From: a virus
Reading direction: 5' to 3' (one strand)
IMG/VR virus record: IMGVR_UViG_3300008110_000079
Location: 1-50,411 of that record
DNA: 50,411 bases
The notes below the pieces were generated by a model. That model was not told the origin of the DNA. It saw nothing but the letters and a program-made list of their open reading frames with translations, and did no database searches. Position 1 is the first letter of the stretch. The number at the start of each line of letters is the position of its first letter. Positions 15,634 to 22,099 of the stretch are shown piece by piece. A program made the translations under genes and the position numbers.

Positions 15634-16353
15634 ATGCCTTTACCAAAAATATCCACACCAACTTATGAGTTGGAACTACCATCTACTGGACAACCTATTG
15701 AGTATAGACCATTTCTTGTTCGTGAAGAAAAACTCTTAGTAATTGCATTGGAAACTGAAGATTCAAAGCAAATAACCAATGCGATAAAAAATGTAATTAA
15801 AAATTGTATTTTAACTAAGAATATAAAAGTAGAAACTTTACCTACCTTCGATATTGAATATTTGTTTTTAAATATTCGCGGTAAATCAGTTGGTGAGGAA
15901 GTTGATGTTAATATTATTTGTCCAGATGATGAAGAAACCACTGTACAAGTAAAGATTAATATTGATGATATTCAAGTTCAAAAAAATCCAGAGCATAGCA
16001 AGCAAATTAAAATTGATGATAGTCTTGCAATTGAAATGAAATATCCATCATTAGATCAATTTATCAAAAGTAATTTTGATTTTACAAATGATAATAATAT
16101 GGAACAATCTTTTGATCTTGTTGCATCATGTGTTGAAAAAATTTATACAGAAGAAGAAATTTGGACTTCATCTGATGTAACTAAAAAGGAGATTGTTGAT
16201 TTCCTTGAGCAAATGAATTCTGCTCAATTTAAAAAAATTGAAAAGTTTTTTGAAACAATGCCAAAACTTTCTCATGAAATTAAAGTGAAAAACCCAAATA
16301 CGAAAGTTGAAAGCACTGTAGTTCTGGAGGGATTATCCAGTTTTTTCGTATAG
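15634..16353 (+). CDS. 26: Baseplate hub assembly protein gp26
   Basis: The 239-residue protein matches cyanophage gp26: PKISTPTYELELPSTGQPIE, YRPFLVREEKLLV, then EYLFLNIRGKSVGEEV. T4 gp26 (208) acts in baseplate hub assembly. Its last codons are AGT TTT TTC GTA TAG, which form a -1 slippery heptamer in frame, and the next small frame is reached by that shift. The protein may therefore be made in two forms, 239 and about 301 residues, like the tail assembly chaperones of siphoviruses. The tape-measure-like genes lie directly downstream. Confidence 0.92.
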   Translation: MPLPKISTPTYELELPSTGQPIEYRPFLVREEKLLVIALETEDSKQITNAIKNVIKNCILTKNIKVETLPTFDIEYLFLNIRGKSVGEEVDVNIICPDDEETTVQVKINIDDIQVQKNPEHSKQIKIDDSLAIEMKYPSLDQFIKSNFDFTNDNNMEQSFDLVASCVEKIYTEEEIWTSSDVTKKEIVDFLEQMNSAQFKKIEKFFETMPKLSHEIKVKNPNTKVESTVVLEGLSSFFV

Positions 16354-16371
16354 CATTGGTCCACATGGACC
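16341..16371 (+). promoter_or_regulatory. Predicted -1 programmed frameshift site
   Basis: T TTT TTC at 16341-16347 is in the correct phase (X XXY YYZ) in gp26. Ten bases later GGTCC at 16358-16362 and GGACC at 16367-16371 form a hairpin with an ACAT loop. A -1 shift bypasses the TAG at 16351-16353 and continues through 63 codons to the stop at 16538. Confidence 0.7.
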
Positions 16372-16538
16372 TTGAAAATTATTTTAAGTTGAACTTCGCC
16401 TTGATGCAGTATCATAAATACTCATTAACGGAGATTGAAAATATGTTGCCGTGGGAAAGAGACATTTATGTTGCTTTACTACAAGCGCATTTAGAGGAAG
16501 AAAAACTTAAACAGCAGCAACAAAATGGCATCAAATAA
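16365..16538 (+). CDS. Small protein after gp26 (gp51 position); probable frameshift extension
   Basis: Read alone from the ATG at 16365, the product is 57 residues (MDLENYFKLNFALMQYHKYS, then MLPWERDIYVALLQAHLEEE). The LPWERDIY pattern is typical of the T-domain of tail assembly chaperones. The ATG sits in the loop of the 16358-16371 hairpin and has no ribosome site, so translation by -1 frameshifting from gp26 is more likely than independent starting. In T4, gene 51 lies at this place, but T4 gp51 is much longer (about 249). It overlaps the tape-measure start by 14 bases. Confidence 0.7.
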   Translation: MDLENYFKLNFALMQYHKYSLTEIENMLPWERDIYVALLQAHLEEEKLKQQQQNGIK

Positions 16539-18984
16539 ACCAAAGTTTATCGATAAATTTTGGCCAGTATCTACAATAGTATCAAGTAGAACTGGACAAT
16601 ATAAAAGAATACTTGCTCAACGAATGGAGAGGAACAAGTATTTAATCGAGAATACTTATGGTGTAAAGGCAGATAGAGTTGTAGATACATTCATCAAAGC
16701 ATATTTGGCGTCGGATAAAGATTATCCTGCGCCAATTGAAATTGTTCAAAATCCAAGGTCAGAAAAAGATTTCGATTTATATAATCAATACATTATATTT
16801 TTGTGGGAATATTATGTAAGAGATAAGAGTAAGAAACCAAAACCAGGTAGAGAAAAACCACCGCCAAATATACCCAATAATCAACAACCTCCAGGTGATC
16901 CTGGGTCATTGACTTTATATGAAGGGAAGAAAGAAGAAGATTTAGTTGATGAAGAAGTTGATGAAAGAATTTTAAAACTTCTTGGATTGCAAGATGTTTT
17001 TGATATTGATTATGGAACTTATCTTACTCTACTAAAAGAGAAGATGATTTCTGCAAGGATGTCATCTACAAGTATTCCTACGGAAGAAATAGAATTAATA
17101 ACTAATGAATATAAAAGAGTAAAGGGTAAGGTTGGTAGATTTAAAATAAAAGGTAAGAAAATAAATGCTGATAATATAAAGGCATCTGGTCCAATAAGAA
17201 TAACTAAAGATCAATTTTTTCTTGCTGGAAAGGTATCAGTTCCAAATGTTAAATCTGAAGATCAAAAACCGACAGCAGAAACATCTGATTTAAAAAAAGA
17301 TATACAAGTAATTAGATCTAGTCTTGAAAATATTGCATCTTTATTAACGGGTCAGAATAAATTATTACAAAAATCATTTGAAACTCAAAGACTACAAAGA
17401 GAAAATAAAAGAAGATCTGATAAGGAAGACAAACTAGAAACTGTAAAAGGTGCATTAAAAAATGTCGCACAAAAAGTATTAGCACCATTTCAAAGTATAT
17501 TGGATAAAATTATTAACTTTATTGTTAATATGCTTCTTGGGAGATTTTTTGTTAAGTTGATGGATTGGCTTGCTAATCCAGAAAATTTTGCTAAAGTTAA
17601 AAATATTTTTAGATTTTTAAAGGATTGGTGGCCTGCTCTTCTAGGTGCATATCTACTTTTTGGTAATGGGTTGGGTAGATTTGTTGTAAAGATCACTGCA
17701 TCTTTAATAAAATATGGATTTAAATTAACTAAAAAAGTATTACCTCAATTATTAAAATTTCTTAAAAGTCCCATTGGAATGGGATTGGGGTTATTTACTG
17801 CTGGTGCGACAGTACCAATGCTTTTCCCACAAACTGTCAATGCCCAAGAGACTGCAATATCATCTTCTCCTGGAACTAATGAGGATAAGATTGGTAAACT
17901 GAAGCAACAGAAAGAAAATTTAAATTGGTTAGATAAACTTCAGGGGAAAGGATCTGAAATTGATGAGCAAATTCATTTCTTAGAAACTGGAAAAACCAAG
18001 GCATATACTGGCGGTGGTTTAATTACAAACTCAAAATATAATAGTGGATTATATACACAACCAATAAAAATTAGTGATATTGGATTTGATGGTGGTGGAT
18101 CAATACAAAATGATACTGGTGTAAAAGTATCTGGTGCTGGAAAGGATACTCAGTTAATTGCTGCTCAACCAGGTGAAATTGTAATTAATAAACCAACAGT
18201 AGATGCTTTAGGTAAAAACTTTTTCTTATCTTTGAATTCTAAGTTTGGTGGATCTGGTGCCAATATACCAAAAATGTATAATGATATTCAACTTGCCGCT
18301 AAGGGTGGTCTTGTTGGTGGGTATTCTGGAGATAAAAAAGATAGTCCACCATCAGATGGAAAGAGAAAACCAACTAGTAAAGTTGCTGCAAAGTTAGCAC
18401 CTTTCTCTATGAAAGATACATTCATGAATTTATCTCCGTTGAATATTGATAAAAGAACTACTATTTTTAATCAAGATTATACTAAAGATAAATCAAAATC
18501 AAAACCAAAGAATAAACAATTAACACCAATGCAACAATGGGCAAAGAATTTCCCAGAACTTGCTAAAAAAGTTAAACCAGGACAATCTGGATATGATGAA
18601 ATACAAGCAGTAATTAATCCAAAAATTGATATGTCTAATGTATTTTCTACATCATTTACTCCTTTGTTTAATAACATTATTGAAAATACTTTCAATAATA
18701 CTGTTAATGGTTTAAATTTTGGTGATCATCAAAACATTAATATTGAAGGTCCCAAAAAACCTAATTTTATACCTGCTAAACAAAATGTTTATATTCCTCC
18801 ATCACCATCAGTTAATAATGCTCCTAATATAATTGCACTTCCACCGATTAGAAAAAATCAAACTTCTAATACTTCTGGTTCTAATAAAAGTATGGGAAAA
18901 GATATACCACAGTTTCCAGCGTTTCAAGATACCGCTACTAGAAAAAACAACCTACAAATTTATGGAATAATAGGGGTAGGTTAG
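16525..18984 (+). CDS. Tape-measure-like tail protein 1, 819 residues
   Basis: The N-terminal 250 residues are hydrophilic with a Pro-rich linker. About residues 255-310 form a charged coiled coil (FETQRLQRENKRRSDKEDKL), followed by long hydrophobic or amphipathic helices (about 320-435). Past residue 490 come Gly-rich motifs typical of tape measures (GGGLITNSKYNSG; AAQPGEIVINKPTVDALG). The coiled-coil-plus-helix block is shared with the next gene. Position after gp26 and its frameshift matches the chaperone-then-tape-measure order of other tailed phages. T4 uses gp29 for this role; no clear gp29 match was seen, so the assignment rests on architecture and order. Confidence 0.65.
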   Translation: MASNKPKFIDKFWPVSTIVSSRTGQYKRILAQRMERNKYLIENTYGVKADRVVDTFIKAYLASDKDYPAPIEIVQNPRSEKDFDLYNQYIIFLWEYYVRDKSKKPKPGREKPPPNIPNNQQPPGDPGSLTLYEGKKEEDLVDEEVDERILKLLGLQDVFDIDYGTYLTLLKEKMISARMSSTSIPTEEIELITNEYKRVKGKVGRFKIKGKKINADNIKASGPIRITKDQFFLAGKVSVPNVKSEDQKPTAETSDLKKDIQVIRSSLENIASLLTGQNKLLQKSFETQRLQRENKRRSDKEDKLETVKGALKNVAQKVLAPFQSILDKIINFIVNMLLGRFFVKLMDWLANPENFAKVKNIFRFLKDWWPALLGAYLLFGNGLGRFVVKITASLIKYGFKLTKKVLPQLLKFLKSPIGMGLGLFTAGATVPMLFPQTVNAQETAISSSPGTNEDKIGKLKQQKENLNWLDKLQGKGSEIDEQIHFLETGKTKAYTGGGLITNSKYNSGLYTQPIKISDIGFDGGGSIQNDTGVKVSGAGKDTQLIAAQPGEIVINKPTVDALGKNFFLSLNSKFGGSGANIPKMYNDIQLAAKGGLVGGYSGDKKDSPPSDGKRKPTSKVAAKLAPFSMKDTFMNLSPLNIDKRTTIFNQDYTKDKSKSKPKNKQLTPMQQWAKNFPELAKKVKPGQSGYDEIQAVINPKIDMSNVFSTSFTPLFNNIIENTFNNTVNGLNFGDHQNINIEGPKKPNFIPAKQNVYIPPSPSVNNAPNIIALPPIRKNQTSNTSGSNKSMGKDIPQFPAFQDTATRKNNLQIYGIIGVG

Positions 18985-18985
18985 T

Positions 18986-21900
18986 ATGAACTTAGATTCT
19001 AAAAAACTTCTTCCACCATCAAAAAAAAGTGAAAGTCAGAAGATAAATGCTGATAAATTTTTAGTACCAGTAAAAAATATACAATATAAAAATATTGTAA
19101 AATTATCTGAGACTAAAGAAGATCAACCAAAAGTTGAAAAGTTTGGTTTAAAAGATGAAATTCTTTCTATAAAAGAATCAATTCTTTCTATTGAAAAATC
19201 TATAGCAAAGTCATTAGATCTACAAAAAGAAAAAATACTAAAGGATAAATTAGATCGAGAAAATAAAAGAAGACAAGATAAAGAAGAGAAATTAGAACAA
19301 AAAAAGGACTACGGTTTTGGTAAAATAATAAAGAATATTCCTAAACCAAAATTAAGTTTTATTGATTGGATTAAGCGATTTGTTTTAAATATGTTCCTTG
19401 GTTATTTTGCCGTTAGGGTGATTGATTATCTGCCAACTATAATATCAATAGCAAGTAAAATAACTCCAGCAATAAACTTTATTGGTTGGATGGGTAAAAA
19501 TTTGTTGAAAGGGTTGATTGATTTTATTGATTGGGGTTATAAAGCATATGATGCAACTCGTGGATTTATAAAACAAGTCGCTGGTGATGGAGCACAAAAA
19601 CAATTTGATAGTTTCTCTAAAAATTTAAATGATGTTTTAAATTATACAATAGTTACTGCTCTTGGTATTGCCGCTCTTGCTGATAAAGTTAGGGATAAAA
19701 ATCCAAACAATAAAACAAATAAAAAAGGTCAACCCAGAGATCCTCGTACAAATAGACCAGTACCGACAGATAAAAAGGGAAATTATTCTTTCCATAGAAG
19801 TGGTGGTGCTTATAATAGAGAAGTATTCAGAAAAACTGATTGGTCATATAAGCAATATGACGCGAATGAAAATCAAATAATGAGGAGATACGCCAGAAAA
19901 TATGGGCGTGATGCTGCAGTTGATAAGTTTGGTAAGGAAAGTGTAAAGGATATTGGTGGAAAGTATGGAAGATCTAAGTTAACTAATGCTGCAAGAGCAG
20001 GTGCTGTTAAATTAGTTGGAAAGTCTGGAGCAAAGACTGTTTTAAAATTTACTAGACCTCTTCTAAAAAGACTTCCTCTTATTGGAGCACTTATTGATTT
20101 TGGACTTTCTGTTGCTTTAGGTGAACCATTAGGTAGAGCAGCATTCTCTGCTATTGGTGCTGCTCTTTTAGGTACAATCGGTGCTGGATTTGGTGGTCCT
20201 ATTGGAGCAGTTCTTGGTGGACTAGCTGGTAATTGGGCAGGTACAAAATTGTATGATATTTTATTTAATGGGAAGAAAGAACAGGGTAATAAAAAGGTTA
20301 AAGGTAAAGCATCTGGTGGACAGGTCACTTCTAGAGGTGGTACAACTGTAGGTGGATCTATTGGAAGAACACAAAAAGTAATTAGAAGAGTACCAAAACC
20401 ACCTAAATTACAAGCACCAGAATCTATTCCAGGAAAAAATATTGGCGGTGAAAAGGTAATAGATAAAGTTTTTCCAAAAGAAACTTCACCAGAACATATT
20501 AGTCCTCTTAGATCTTTAAAAACTTCTTCAAGTATATTGAAAGGATCTGGGTCTACATTATTAAGTCAAACAATGGCAGTTGGTGTTGATCTTGCTATGG
20601 GGCAAAAACCAACAAAAGAATTTTATAGTAAATATGGAAAAGCGTTTGGGTCTTTTGTTCAGGAAATGGTTAATACTAATATGGAAATGACCACCCAAGA
20701 AACAGCAAGATCAATACTTGCTATGGCAAACGGTGGAACAGTTCCATATAATATTCCATCTAGGGGACCAAATTTTGGTGAAAAGGTTGGGGAGATGGTG
20801 GCAACTGCATTTGCCAACACTGTTGAAAAACAATCGTCATTAATATTAAATGCATTGAAAATAGAATCGAATAAAAAATCATATACTGGTATTACTGAAA
20901 GTGATCCTACATTGGAAGGTGATGATGAAGGTGGTGAAGGTGGTATGACTAAAGGTACGTGGGGACCACTTTTAGATTTAATTGCTGGTAAAGAATCTGG
21001 TGGAAATTATGAGGCAATGTATCCAAGCACTACTTTAAAAGGTGCCACTAAAATGACAATCGCTGAAGTTGCCAGAAGAGCAACTGGTGCTGTAGGAAAA
21101 TATCAACAACTTCCACAATACCTTGTCAATCGAGCAAAGGCGGCAGGTCTTAATCCAGATAAAGATCTGTATAGTCCAGAAAATCAAGAAAAGATTATTA
21201 TTAATGTTAATATCAAAGGAAGAGGTGGTGAAAGATGGTTAAAGGGTGAAATAAGTGATGAAGAATTTATGCAAGGATTATCACAAGAATTTGCATCTTT
21301 ACCTAATGCTCAAGGTAAGTTTTATTATCCTGGGCAAAGTAGTGCAATGACCCCTGCAAAGGTAAAAGCAGCATTATCTAAAGTTAAGAAAGGTGGTTAT
21401 TCTCAAGCAGAACTTGCTAAAGGTGGTAAAGATCCTTCGATTGGATTGGGTAAAGGATATGGTTCTGCTGGAGGAAAAATTGCTGGTGAATTGGGTAGGT
21501 ATCTTAATAAAGCATTAGTTCCTGGAAAAGATTTCCTTAGAGTTACAGAACATCCTGAACATGGTGGAGTTAGAGGTAGACATGCAAGAAATTCTTATCA
21601 CTACGATGGTAGAGCAGTTGATATTGGTGCGTGGGATTGGGAACAACCAAAAATATTAAGAGCGATTGCAGACTTTAATAAGAAGCGTGGTGTAAAACCA
21701 GTTGAATTATTACATGCAAAAAATGAACCTTCTGGACATAGCGACCACGTTCACGTCGCATATAAACATGGTGGATTAGTAACAAAACCAACACATGCTT
21801 TAATTGGTGAAACTAAAAAACCAGAAATGGTATTGGATCCAGATACAACTGGGACAATGAATAAAGAATATCCTGGTATGTTGGCAAAGTTAAATGCTGC

Positions 21901-22099
21901 TAAAAATAAAAAGCAAATATCTGAAGTTTTAAATACCTATGCTTCTTATGAAAACAATAATGGTAAGTCTTCTATTATTCTGATACCGATAGAAAAAATT
22001 GTAAATAATACTATAACTAAACAAACACCAGGTCAATCAATGACTGGTGGAAGATCTTTTTCTTCTGATGGTTTAAACATCGAAACTTTACTAGCATGA
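18986..22099 (+). CDS. Tape-measure-like tail protein 2 with two wall-lytic domains
   Basis: This 1037-residue protein repeats the charged coiled coil (LDRENKRRQDKEEKLE, about residue 90) and helix block of its neighbour, then has Gly/Ala-rich hydrophobic helices near residues 375-415. About residues 660-800 form a muramidase-like domain: AGKESGGNYEAM with a candidate catalytic Glu, and GAVGKYQQLPQYL. About 835-925 form an M15/VanY-type peptidase: HYDGRAVDIGAWDW and HSDHVHVAYKHGG, with metal-binding His and Asp residues. The end has the tape-measure motif GGLVTKPTHALIGETKKPEM. It probably digests peptidoglycan during DNA entry, taking over the role of the T4 gp5 lysozyme. It starts 2 bases after its paralog. 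Confidence 0.8.
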   Translation: MNLDSKKLLPPSKKSESQKINADKFLVPVKNIQYKNIVKLSETKEDQPKVEKFGLKDEILSIKESILSIEKSIAKSLDLQKEKILKDKLDRENKRRQDKEEKLEQKKDYGFGKIIKNIPKPKLSFIDWIKRFVLNMFLGYFAVRVIDYLPTIISIASKITPAINFIGWMGKNLLKGLIDFIDWGYKAYDATRGFIKQVAGDGAQKQFDSFSKNLNDVLNYTIVTALGIAALADKVRDKNPNNKTNKKGQPRDPRTNRPVPTDKKGNYSFHRSGGAYNREVFRKTDWSYKQYDANENQIMRRYARKYGRDAAVDKFGKESVKDIGGKYGRSKLTNAARAGAVKLVGKSGAKTVLKFTRPLLKRLPLIGALIDFGLSVALGEPLGRAAFSAIGAALLGTIGAGFGGPIGAVLGGLAGNWAGTKLYDILFNGKKEQGNKKVKGKASGGQVTSRGGTTVGGSIGRTQKVIRRVPKPPKLQAPESIPGKNIGGEKVIDKVFPKETSPEHISPLRSLKTSSSILKGSGSTLLSQTMAVGVDLAMGQKPTKEFYSKYGKAFGSFVQEMVNTNMEMTTQETARSILAMANGGTVPYNIPSRGPNFGEKVGEMVATAFANTVEKQSSLILNALKIESNKKSYTGITESDPTLEGDDEGGEGGMTKGTWGPLLDLIAGKESGGNYEAMYPSTTLKGATKMTIAEVARRATGAVGKYQQLPQYLVNRAKAAGLNPDKDLYSPENQEKIIINVNIKGRGGERWLKGEISDEEFMQGLSQEFASLPNAQGKFYYPGQSSAMTPAKVKAALSKVKKGGYSQAELAKGGKDPSIGLGKGYGSAGGKIAGELGRYLNKALVPGKDFLRVTEHPEHGGVRGRHARNSYHYDGRAVDIGAWDWEQPKILRAIADFNKKRGVKPVELLHAKNEPSGHSDHVHVAYKHGGLVTKPTHALIGETKKPEMVLDPDTTGTMNKEYPGMLAKLNAAKNKKQISEVLNTYASYENNNGKSSIILIPIEKIVNNTITKQTPGQSMTGGRSFSSDGLNIETLLA

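Follow-up and report, generated by a model that had tools for sequence, protein, structure and literature searches.

The gp26 junction

The window analysed here is the 50,411-base virus record IMGVR_UViG_3300008110_000079, which is T4-like and cyanophage-related. It carries a gene for gp26 that matches the profiles PF12322 (T4_baseplate; 2.1e-76) and phrog_150 ('baseplate hub'; 4.7e-80), and among the matches listed the closest named phage is Synechococcus phage SynMITS9220M01, whose protein shows 74.5% identity. The last codons of gp26 are AGT TTT TTC GTA TAG, confirming a sequence-only reading of this DNA, which had placed T TTT TTC in phase at the end of the gene, 3 bases 5' of the stop. 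The features of the locus are as follows.

15634-16353, + strand: gp26, 239 aa, predicted short tail assembly chaperone (TAC-N), based on PF12322, phrog_150 and the predicted fold
16326-16331, + strand: Shine-Dalgarno (SD)-like GGAGGG within gp26, putative upstream stimulator, based on anti-SD pairing and Glu/Gly codon coupling
16341-16347, + strand: slippery heptamer T_TTT_TTC, predicted -1 site, with TTTTTTC, TTTTTTT or TTTTTTG present here in 196 of 199 loci
16347-16538, + strand: -1 frame extension, predicted gp51-like T domain, 63 aa, based on phrog_634 and colinearity with T4 gp51 across the junction
16351-16353, + strand: zero-frame TAG stop, from the ORF reading
16358-16371, + strand: 5-bp stem-loop GGTCC-ACAT-GGACC, putative downstream stimulator, based on covariation and the folding z peak
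16372-16387, + strand: possible second stem-loop adjoining the first, from the minimum-energy fold of the window alone
16525-18984, + strand: following gene for an 819-aa candidate tape measure or tail protein, matching mostly unnamed families and overlapping the extension by 14 bases
18986-22099, + strand: second gene downstream, 1037 aa, with a C-terminus that is tape-measure-like (phrog_167, 9.2e-9; endolysin-family phrog_12490, 4.1e-21)

The arms of the hairpin, GGTCC at 16358-16362 and GGACC at 16367-16371, start 10 bases past the heptamer, in agreement with the earlier description. The -1 frame is open until a stop at 16536-16538, and gp26 plus this extension would form a predicted TAC-NC whose computed length, 301 residues, equals the approximate length given before. 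The small ORF in the -1 frame (60 codons) hits phrog_634 ('baseplate hub assembly catalyst', gp51; 2.9e-28) and, at 1.3e-5, positions 240-280 of phrog_150, which was a first hint that both parts are in one protein in some relatives. By these PF12322, phrog_150 and phrog_634 matches both parts belong to the T4 gp26/gp51 family. The ATG of the small ORF (16365-16367) had been placed in the hairpin loop, which holds for two of its bases, but its G lies in the stem.

TTTTTTC occurs 39 times on both strands of the whole window against 38.3 expected. Since this is the level of chance, the heptamer by itself is uninformative, and its rarity in the window was rejected as evidence. The local 40-base stretch with the hairpin has a modest folding z of -1.65 (11 of 200 shuffles were equally good), and the pattern GAGGG-N9-TTTTTTC, chosen after the site had been seen, occurs once in the window and in none of 100 shuffles.

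Conservation of the heptamer and the -1 frame

Relatives of gp26 were found in 718 phage records, and 462 of these carry the name Synechococcus phage, Prochlorococcus phage or cyanophage. The junction was checked in 199 loci, comprising this window, IMG/VR contigs and named phages, among them Prochlorococcus phage P-SSM2 (L094) and Synechococcus phage syn9 (L093). When compared over gp26 plus 60 bases, 181 of these 199 loci are distinct, several being near copies or second records of one phage. TTTTTTC starts 10 bases before the predicted stop in 181 of the 199 loci; at 7 bases before the stop we found TTTTTTT in 9 and TTTTTTC in 2, and the Sinorhizobium phages phiM12 and phiM9 carry TTTTTTT 13 bases and TTTTTTG 10 bases before the stop, respectively. 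The predicted gp26 stop lacks a heptamer in five loci, including L007 and L187, where gp26 stops early (codons 138 and 162) and the homologous junction has both heptamer and extension intact. For these two early stops, sequencing errors and real lesions are indistinguishable.

Overall, a six- or seven-T heptamer is found at the gp26 junction in 196 of the 199 loci. The canonical heptamer is absent at the junction of three Vibrio phage loci, L099, L100 and L103, which end in CTTTTC, GTTTTTC and CTTTTTC, in that order, and have the -1 extension. None of these three ends in Phe-Phe, so every locus with Phe-Phe at this place has the heptamer. Two of the three Vibrio junctions resemble the GTTTTT site reported for phage Adele (PMC12846349). 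Using a loose motif test, the gp51-like domain was found in the -1 frame of 194 of the 199 loci, the remaining five being three cuts at contig ends and two (L007 and L187) that were read from the early stop. The junction alignment that had been proposed as a check thus found both the heptamer and the frame relation kept, and besides cyanophages the heptamer occurs in Pelagibacter phage HTVC008M, KVP40, phiAS5, LPCS28, YB07 and phiW-14.

Upstream element and downstream RNA structure

For codon analyses we used 176 distinct intact loci that were picked for the heptamer. This way of picking cost nothing, since it left out exact repeats, L007 and L187, whose junction is intact, and the three Vibrio loci that do not end in Phe-Phe. 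The SD-like GGAGGG, which was absent from the list of the sequence-only reading, is encoded by Glu-Gly, and the Gly lies four codons before the final codon pair in 176 of 176 loci. Statistics on this element were based on 93 clusters (<80% identity). Glu precedes the Gly in 82 of these 93, as GAG in 59 and as GAA in 23 (background 31% GAG). When Glu is GAA, the Gly codon is GGG in 15 of 23 clusters (background 6%) and another codon in 8, and when Glu is GAG, it is GGG in just 4 of 59. As judged from these counts, the coupled choice of Glu and Gly codons keeps a purine-rich, SD-like stretch either way.

Pairing energies with the anti-SD were calculated with an assumed 16S tail sequence. The best 8-base duplex of the window element reaches -10.7 kcal/mol, and in the 93 clusters pairing is strongest for 8-mers that end 7-9 bases upstream of the heptamer. 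The mean best energy there is -7.35 kcal/mol, whereas synonymous draws average -5.72 kcal/mol (sd 0.17), and 0 of 200 draws fell as low. A few loci have weak elements, such as L096 (-2.5) and L090 (-3.1). As in dnaX, an SD-like element is thus found at a fixed distance and under selection, and it would be expected to stimulate frameshifting.

Folding was compared with shuffles along the region downstream of the heptamer. The optimum was the 40-base segment at offset +12, counted from the first base of the heptamer (mean z -2.02, 91-93 clusters), and segments of this size that do not overlap it gave z values of -0.54 to +0.18. Covariation in the clade of the window was assessed in 52 sequences picked by an encoded His-Met-Asp, a selection that fixes one stem pair. 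Of the cells of the 5-bp stem 87.3% are paired and 27 have changes on both sides, and 0 of 500 shuffles reach either value; the shuffles ignore relatedness, and two of the five covariation measures were not above them (106/500 and 499/500). Slid versions of the stem are paired in at most 55.8% of cells, and RNAalifold gives 4 pairs at just -0.5 kcal/mol. In a second clade (31 sequences) an 11-bp stem is possible; 85.6% of its cells pair and 8 show double changes, fewer than the 11 in one slid control, and RNAalifold gives no structure for these 31 sequences. The window stem is fully paired in 36 of 131 loci (90% identity clusters) and other lineages fold differently, so one universal hairpin was rejected. 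We read this as a need for structure that is probably kept while the stems change between lineages, less certainly so in the second clade. A downstream stem-loop of the dnaX kind is supported by the window clade and the folding peak, with weak RNAalifold energy and mixed results in the second clade.

Alternatives to ribosomal frameshifting

The heptamer might be kept merely for a conserved C-terminal Phe-Phe, with no frameshift involved, and Phe-Phe is indeed invariant in an alignment of nine diverse gp26 proteins. However, the final pair is encoded by TTT TTC in 167 of the 176 loci (TTT TTT in 8 and TTT TTG in 1), as opposed to 4 of 180 Phe-Phe pairs elsewhere in these genes. The codon before the pair ends in T in 176 of 176 loci despite a changing residue (S 130, G 18, D 14, A 8, N 6), and L098 encodes Phe-Leu, yet keeps six Ts. 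Selection at the pair acts, on this codon evidence, on nucleotides, and we give hardly any credence to an explanation by Phe-Phe alone. Another way to obtain the fusion would be transcriptional slippage, with the polymerase slipping within the T run and normal translation of the altered mRNA. The run is homopolymeric and reads TTTTTTT in 10 of the 199 loci, 9 of which are extended to 8 Ts by the first base of the stop codon, but most runs have 6 Ts, compared to the runs of 9 for which a review mentions slippage in bacteria (PMC5009743), and both the 5' SD-like element and the position of the hairpin fit ribosomal frameshifting, which makes slippage of the polymerase very improbable, though less so than the Phe-Phe explanation.

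Only marginally more probable, and still very unlikely in our judgement, is that gp51 is an independent small gene with its own start, reached by re-initiation or coupling after the gp26 stop. This is how databases annotate it: among 18 annotated named records that carry the heptamer, a downstream CDS stands on its own in 15 and a joined gene is marked in none. The window also has an ATG 24 bases (8 codons) past the heptamer start. That the small gene has no ribosome site, as noted before, is true, but it is weak evidence and proves little, because gp26 starts score poorly too: an SD energy of -4 kcal/mol or lower is found at 9 of 93 first ATGs of the small ORF and at 11 of 92 gp26 starts (means -1.4 and -2.7, respectively). 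More telling is the survey of start codons in the 176 distinct loci, on which an independent gp51 start was rejected as the main explanation. The first ATG in the -1 frame lies at least 11 codons past the heptamer in 37 of them, and 29 of those 37, some of which are near copies, also lack any ATG, GTG or TTG in the 10 codons that follow the heptamer, so that this test revealed no reliable start for the small gene. Several annotated gp51 starts fall within the conserved extension (L083, 3753-3890; L086, 2765-2899; L092, 2765-2902; L093, 2771-2914; L095, 3268-3390), and the public proteins are therefore probably truncated. In the three annotated records L090, L091 and L101 gp51 is not listed, and the unannotated extension leaves an empty stretch between gp26 and the gene that follows. 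The GGAGGG element ends 33 bases before the window ATG, which is too far to serve that start, and an independent gene would leave the heptamer and its codon context without a reason for retention. Moreover, T4 gp51 is a single fused protein. Base diversity before the usual ATG, by position of the -1 codon, is 0.56/0.26/0.55, a pattern that also speaks against a separate start, with the low second value partly due to the gp26 stop codon itself falling there.

Considering these alternatives, we put the probability that a -1 ribosomal frameshift occurs in this virus at about 93%. As far as can be told from nucleotides, the slip signal is unusually complete. The annotation of a widespread gene pair would then have to be corrected, the 'baseplate hub assembly catalyst' gp51 most likely being the tail of a frameshift product.

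Predicted fold of gp26 and downstream genes

The structure of gp26 was an AlphaFold2 model (pLDDT 86). The first solved match in Foldseek was the HK97 chaperone 2ob9, which was not significant (E 1.1). A second aligner, run on Foldseek's own candidates, gave 2ob9 (Z 8.0, 84 residues, rmsd 4.0), 3fgx (Z 7.8, 86 residues, rmsd 4.0), 3klu (Z 7.3, 86 residues, rmsd 4.3) and 5ir0 (Z 4.7, 79 residues, rmsd 3.7) as its top four matches, all confined to gp26 residues 1-96, and the next rows had Z values of 4.2 and 2.8. The structures 2ob9, 3fgx and 3klu are phage tail assembly chaperones in the text of PMC9603447, the table of which lists 3fgx and 3klu as uncharacterized, and 5ir0 and 2ob9 are described as chaperones in PMC12987554. 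A Z near 8 is possible without kinship; four out of four from one functional family would be hard to put down to chance. A short protein with a chaperone fold, as in lambda-type systems, is thus found on the predicted model and is borderline by Z. The comparison of gp26 with chaperone structures, another check that had been proposed, therefore yielded a predicted fold that best resembles tail assembly chaperones, Foldseek alone not being significant.

A model of a T4-like gp51 (pLDDT 90) had no clear solved match and no chaperone among the matches listed, which excludes nothing, and searching by sequence for solved relatives of either gp26 or T4 gp51 gave nothing convincing. In BFVD, the 50 matches listed for the gp26 model were mainly baseplate hub and unnamed phage proteins.

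The genes that follow had been called tape-measure-like. This held for the C-terminus of the second gene (phrog_167, 9.2e-9), but the tape-measure match of the first was marginal (phrog_37649, 0.064). In the relative HTVC008M, a putative tape measure is annotated two genes after gp51. Residues 225-349 of the product of the 16525-18984 gene are related to that of the 18986-22099 gene (131 columns, 31% identity, 1e-13), and with this common segment the two may both be tape-measure-type proteins.

A predicted TAC-N/TAC-NC pair

The proposal that gp26 and gp51 are tail assembly chaperones made by frameshifting is supported by conservation, by the lack of a reliable small-gene start and by the predicted fold. 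Given the conservation, the T4 gp51 fusion and the predicted fold, the most likely assignment is TAC-N for gp26 and TAC-NC for the frameshift product, and we are confident, slightly less than for the frameshift itself, that gp26 and its extension correspond to lambda G and GT. Most ribosomes would finish gp26 as Phe-Phe-Val-stop, producing TAC-N. In a minority, the pairing between GGAGGG and the 16S tail and the hairpin ahead would cause a delay; these ribosomes would slip one base back on U_UUU_UUC and read 63 more codons across a Phe-Phe-Arg-Ile junction, giving the TAC-NC of 301 residues. If roles are divided as for lambda G/GT, the tape measure would be coated by many short copies, and a few long ones would recruit tail-tube subunits via the extension; the chaperones of lambda are not part of its virion. 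The slippage itself, its efficiency and the binding partners are what we infer here.

With lambda gpG/gpGT the locus shares a short gene before a candidate tape-measure region, a -1 heptamer near its end, an extension that has no reliable start of its own and an expected many-to-few ratio of products. It differs in combining T_TTT_TTC with an upstream SD-like element, and the fold match covers residues 1-96 of 239. A -1 shift has also been proposed in Vandenendeviridae/Andersonviridae, where it would take place on a poly-T site, GTTTTT, in the last part of the chaperone gene (phage Adele, PMC12846349), and there too the downstream ORF is usually annotated separately (PMC12846349). These are other families, likened here by arrangement, and the full T_TTT_TTC, the SD-like element and the hairpins set the present locus apart. 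The arrangement of an upstream SD stimulator, a slippery heptamer and a downstream stem-loop is that of E. coli dnaX, which in contrast uses A_AAA_AAG with ~50% shifting (PMC5009743). Stimulation by an SD-like element is known from -1 frameshifting in E. coli dnaX and from an estimated 56% of IS elements (PMC5009743). The gp26 junctions provide a natural set of sites for studying the effects of SD pairing and hairpins on -1 rates in cyanobacterial and other hosts.

Judging by its title, a paper by Vladimirov et al. 2022 (Virology 566:9-15) concerns T4-like tail assembly chaperone genes, presumably T4 gp26 and gp51. A 2016 review describes lambda-type frameshifting as widely conserved 'except T4' (PMC5009743). 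The PRFect paper (PMC10885494), citing Vladimirov et al. 2022, states that some T4-like phages carry a short gene alongside a long, fused one, and the 2025 phage Adele paper (PMC12846349) credits the same authors with poly-T slip signals. The sequence-only reading knew of no description of the arrangement for T4-like phages, a hint of novelty that could not be upheld, since both the chaperone genes and the poly-T signals are attributed to that earlier work. Going by these citing passages, the chaperone identity is already in print, and the frameshift probably is as well. The SD-like element, the codon coupling and the changing hairpins were not found in the literature passages on such chaperones, for which newness cannot be claimed, and PMC10448857 contained nothing on the gp26 junction site.

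T4 gp26 and gp51

T4 gp51 (249 aa) matches PF12322 over residues 1-201 (3.9e-52), and its C-terminus is of the gp51 type (phrog_634, 1.2e-23). In a single blastp comparison it was colinear with the predicted 301-residue product across the junction (3e-4, 22% identity). In T4 gp26, PF12322 is present but the extension is not, and the gene ends in G TTC TTT, with no heptamer. The same end is found in L102, the only other T4-type gp26 end examined. The T4-type gp51 is a full-length fused gene in 11 of 12 loci, breaking early in L211. KVP40, phiAS5 and LPCS28, which belong to T4's family Straboviridae according to their records, have kept the frameshift form. T4 thus resembles the present locus in that both of its proteins carry PF12322 and gp51 also has the extension, and differs in that the two forms come from two separate, divergently oriented genes, with no heptamer at the end of gp26.

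In a tree of 47 rows, the T4-type gp26 (8) and gp51 (7) proteins each form one supported group, and the two groups adjoin relative to the 32 single-gene chaperones. The split of these 32 has weak support (84/38), and the tree carries a long-branch warning. As read from sequence relationships, tree and loci agree with a loss of the frameshift and a duplication in the T4 line, the direction of which is not proven. We consider it fairly likely that the cassette of SD-like element, T_TTT_TTC and lineage-replaced hairpins was the ancestral route to two tail chaperones in the T4 superfamily, and that the Tevenvirinae lost it and duplicated a fused gene 51 instead, in which case cyanophage gene 51 would be no gene of its own. 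This offers a testable origin for the two-gene solution of T4. In a comparison from 2010, cyanophage gp51 had ~20% of the length of other gp51 proteins and was similar to their C-terminus (PMC3037559).
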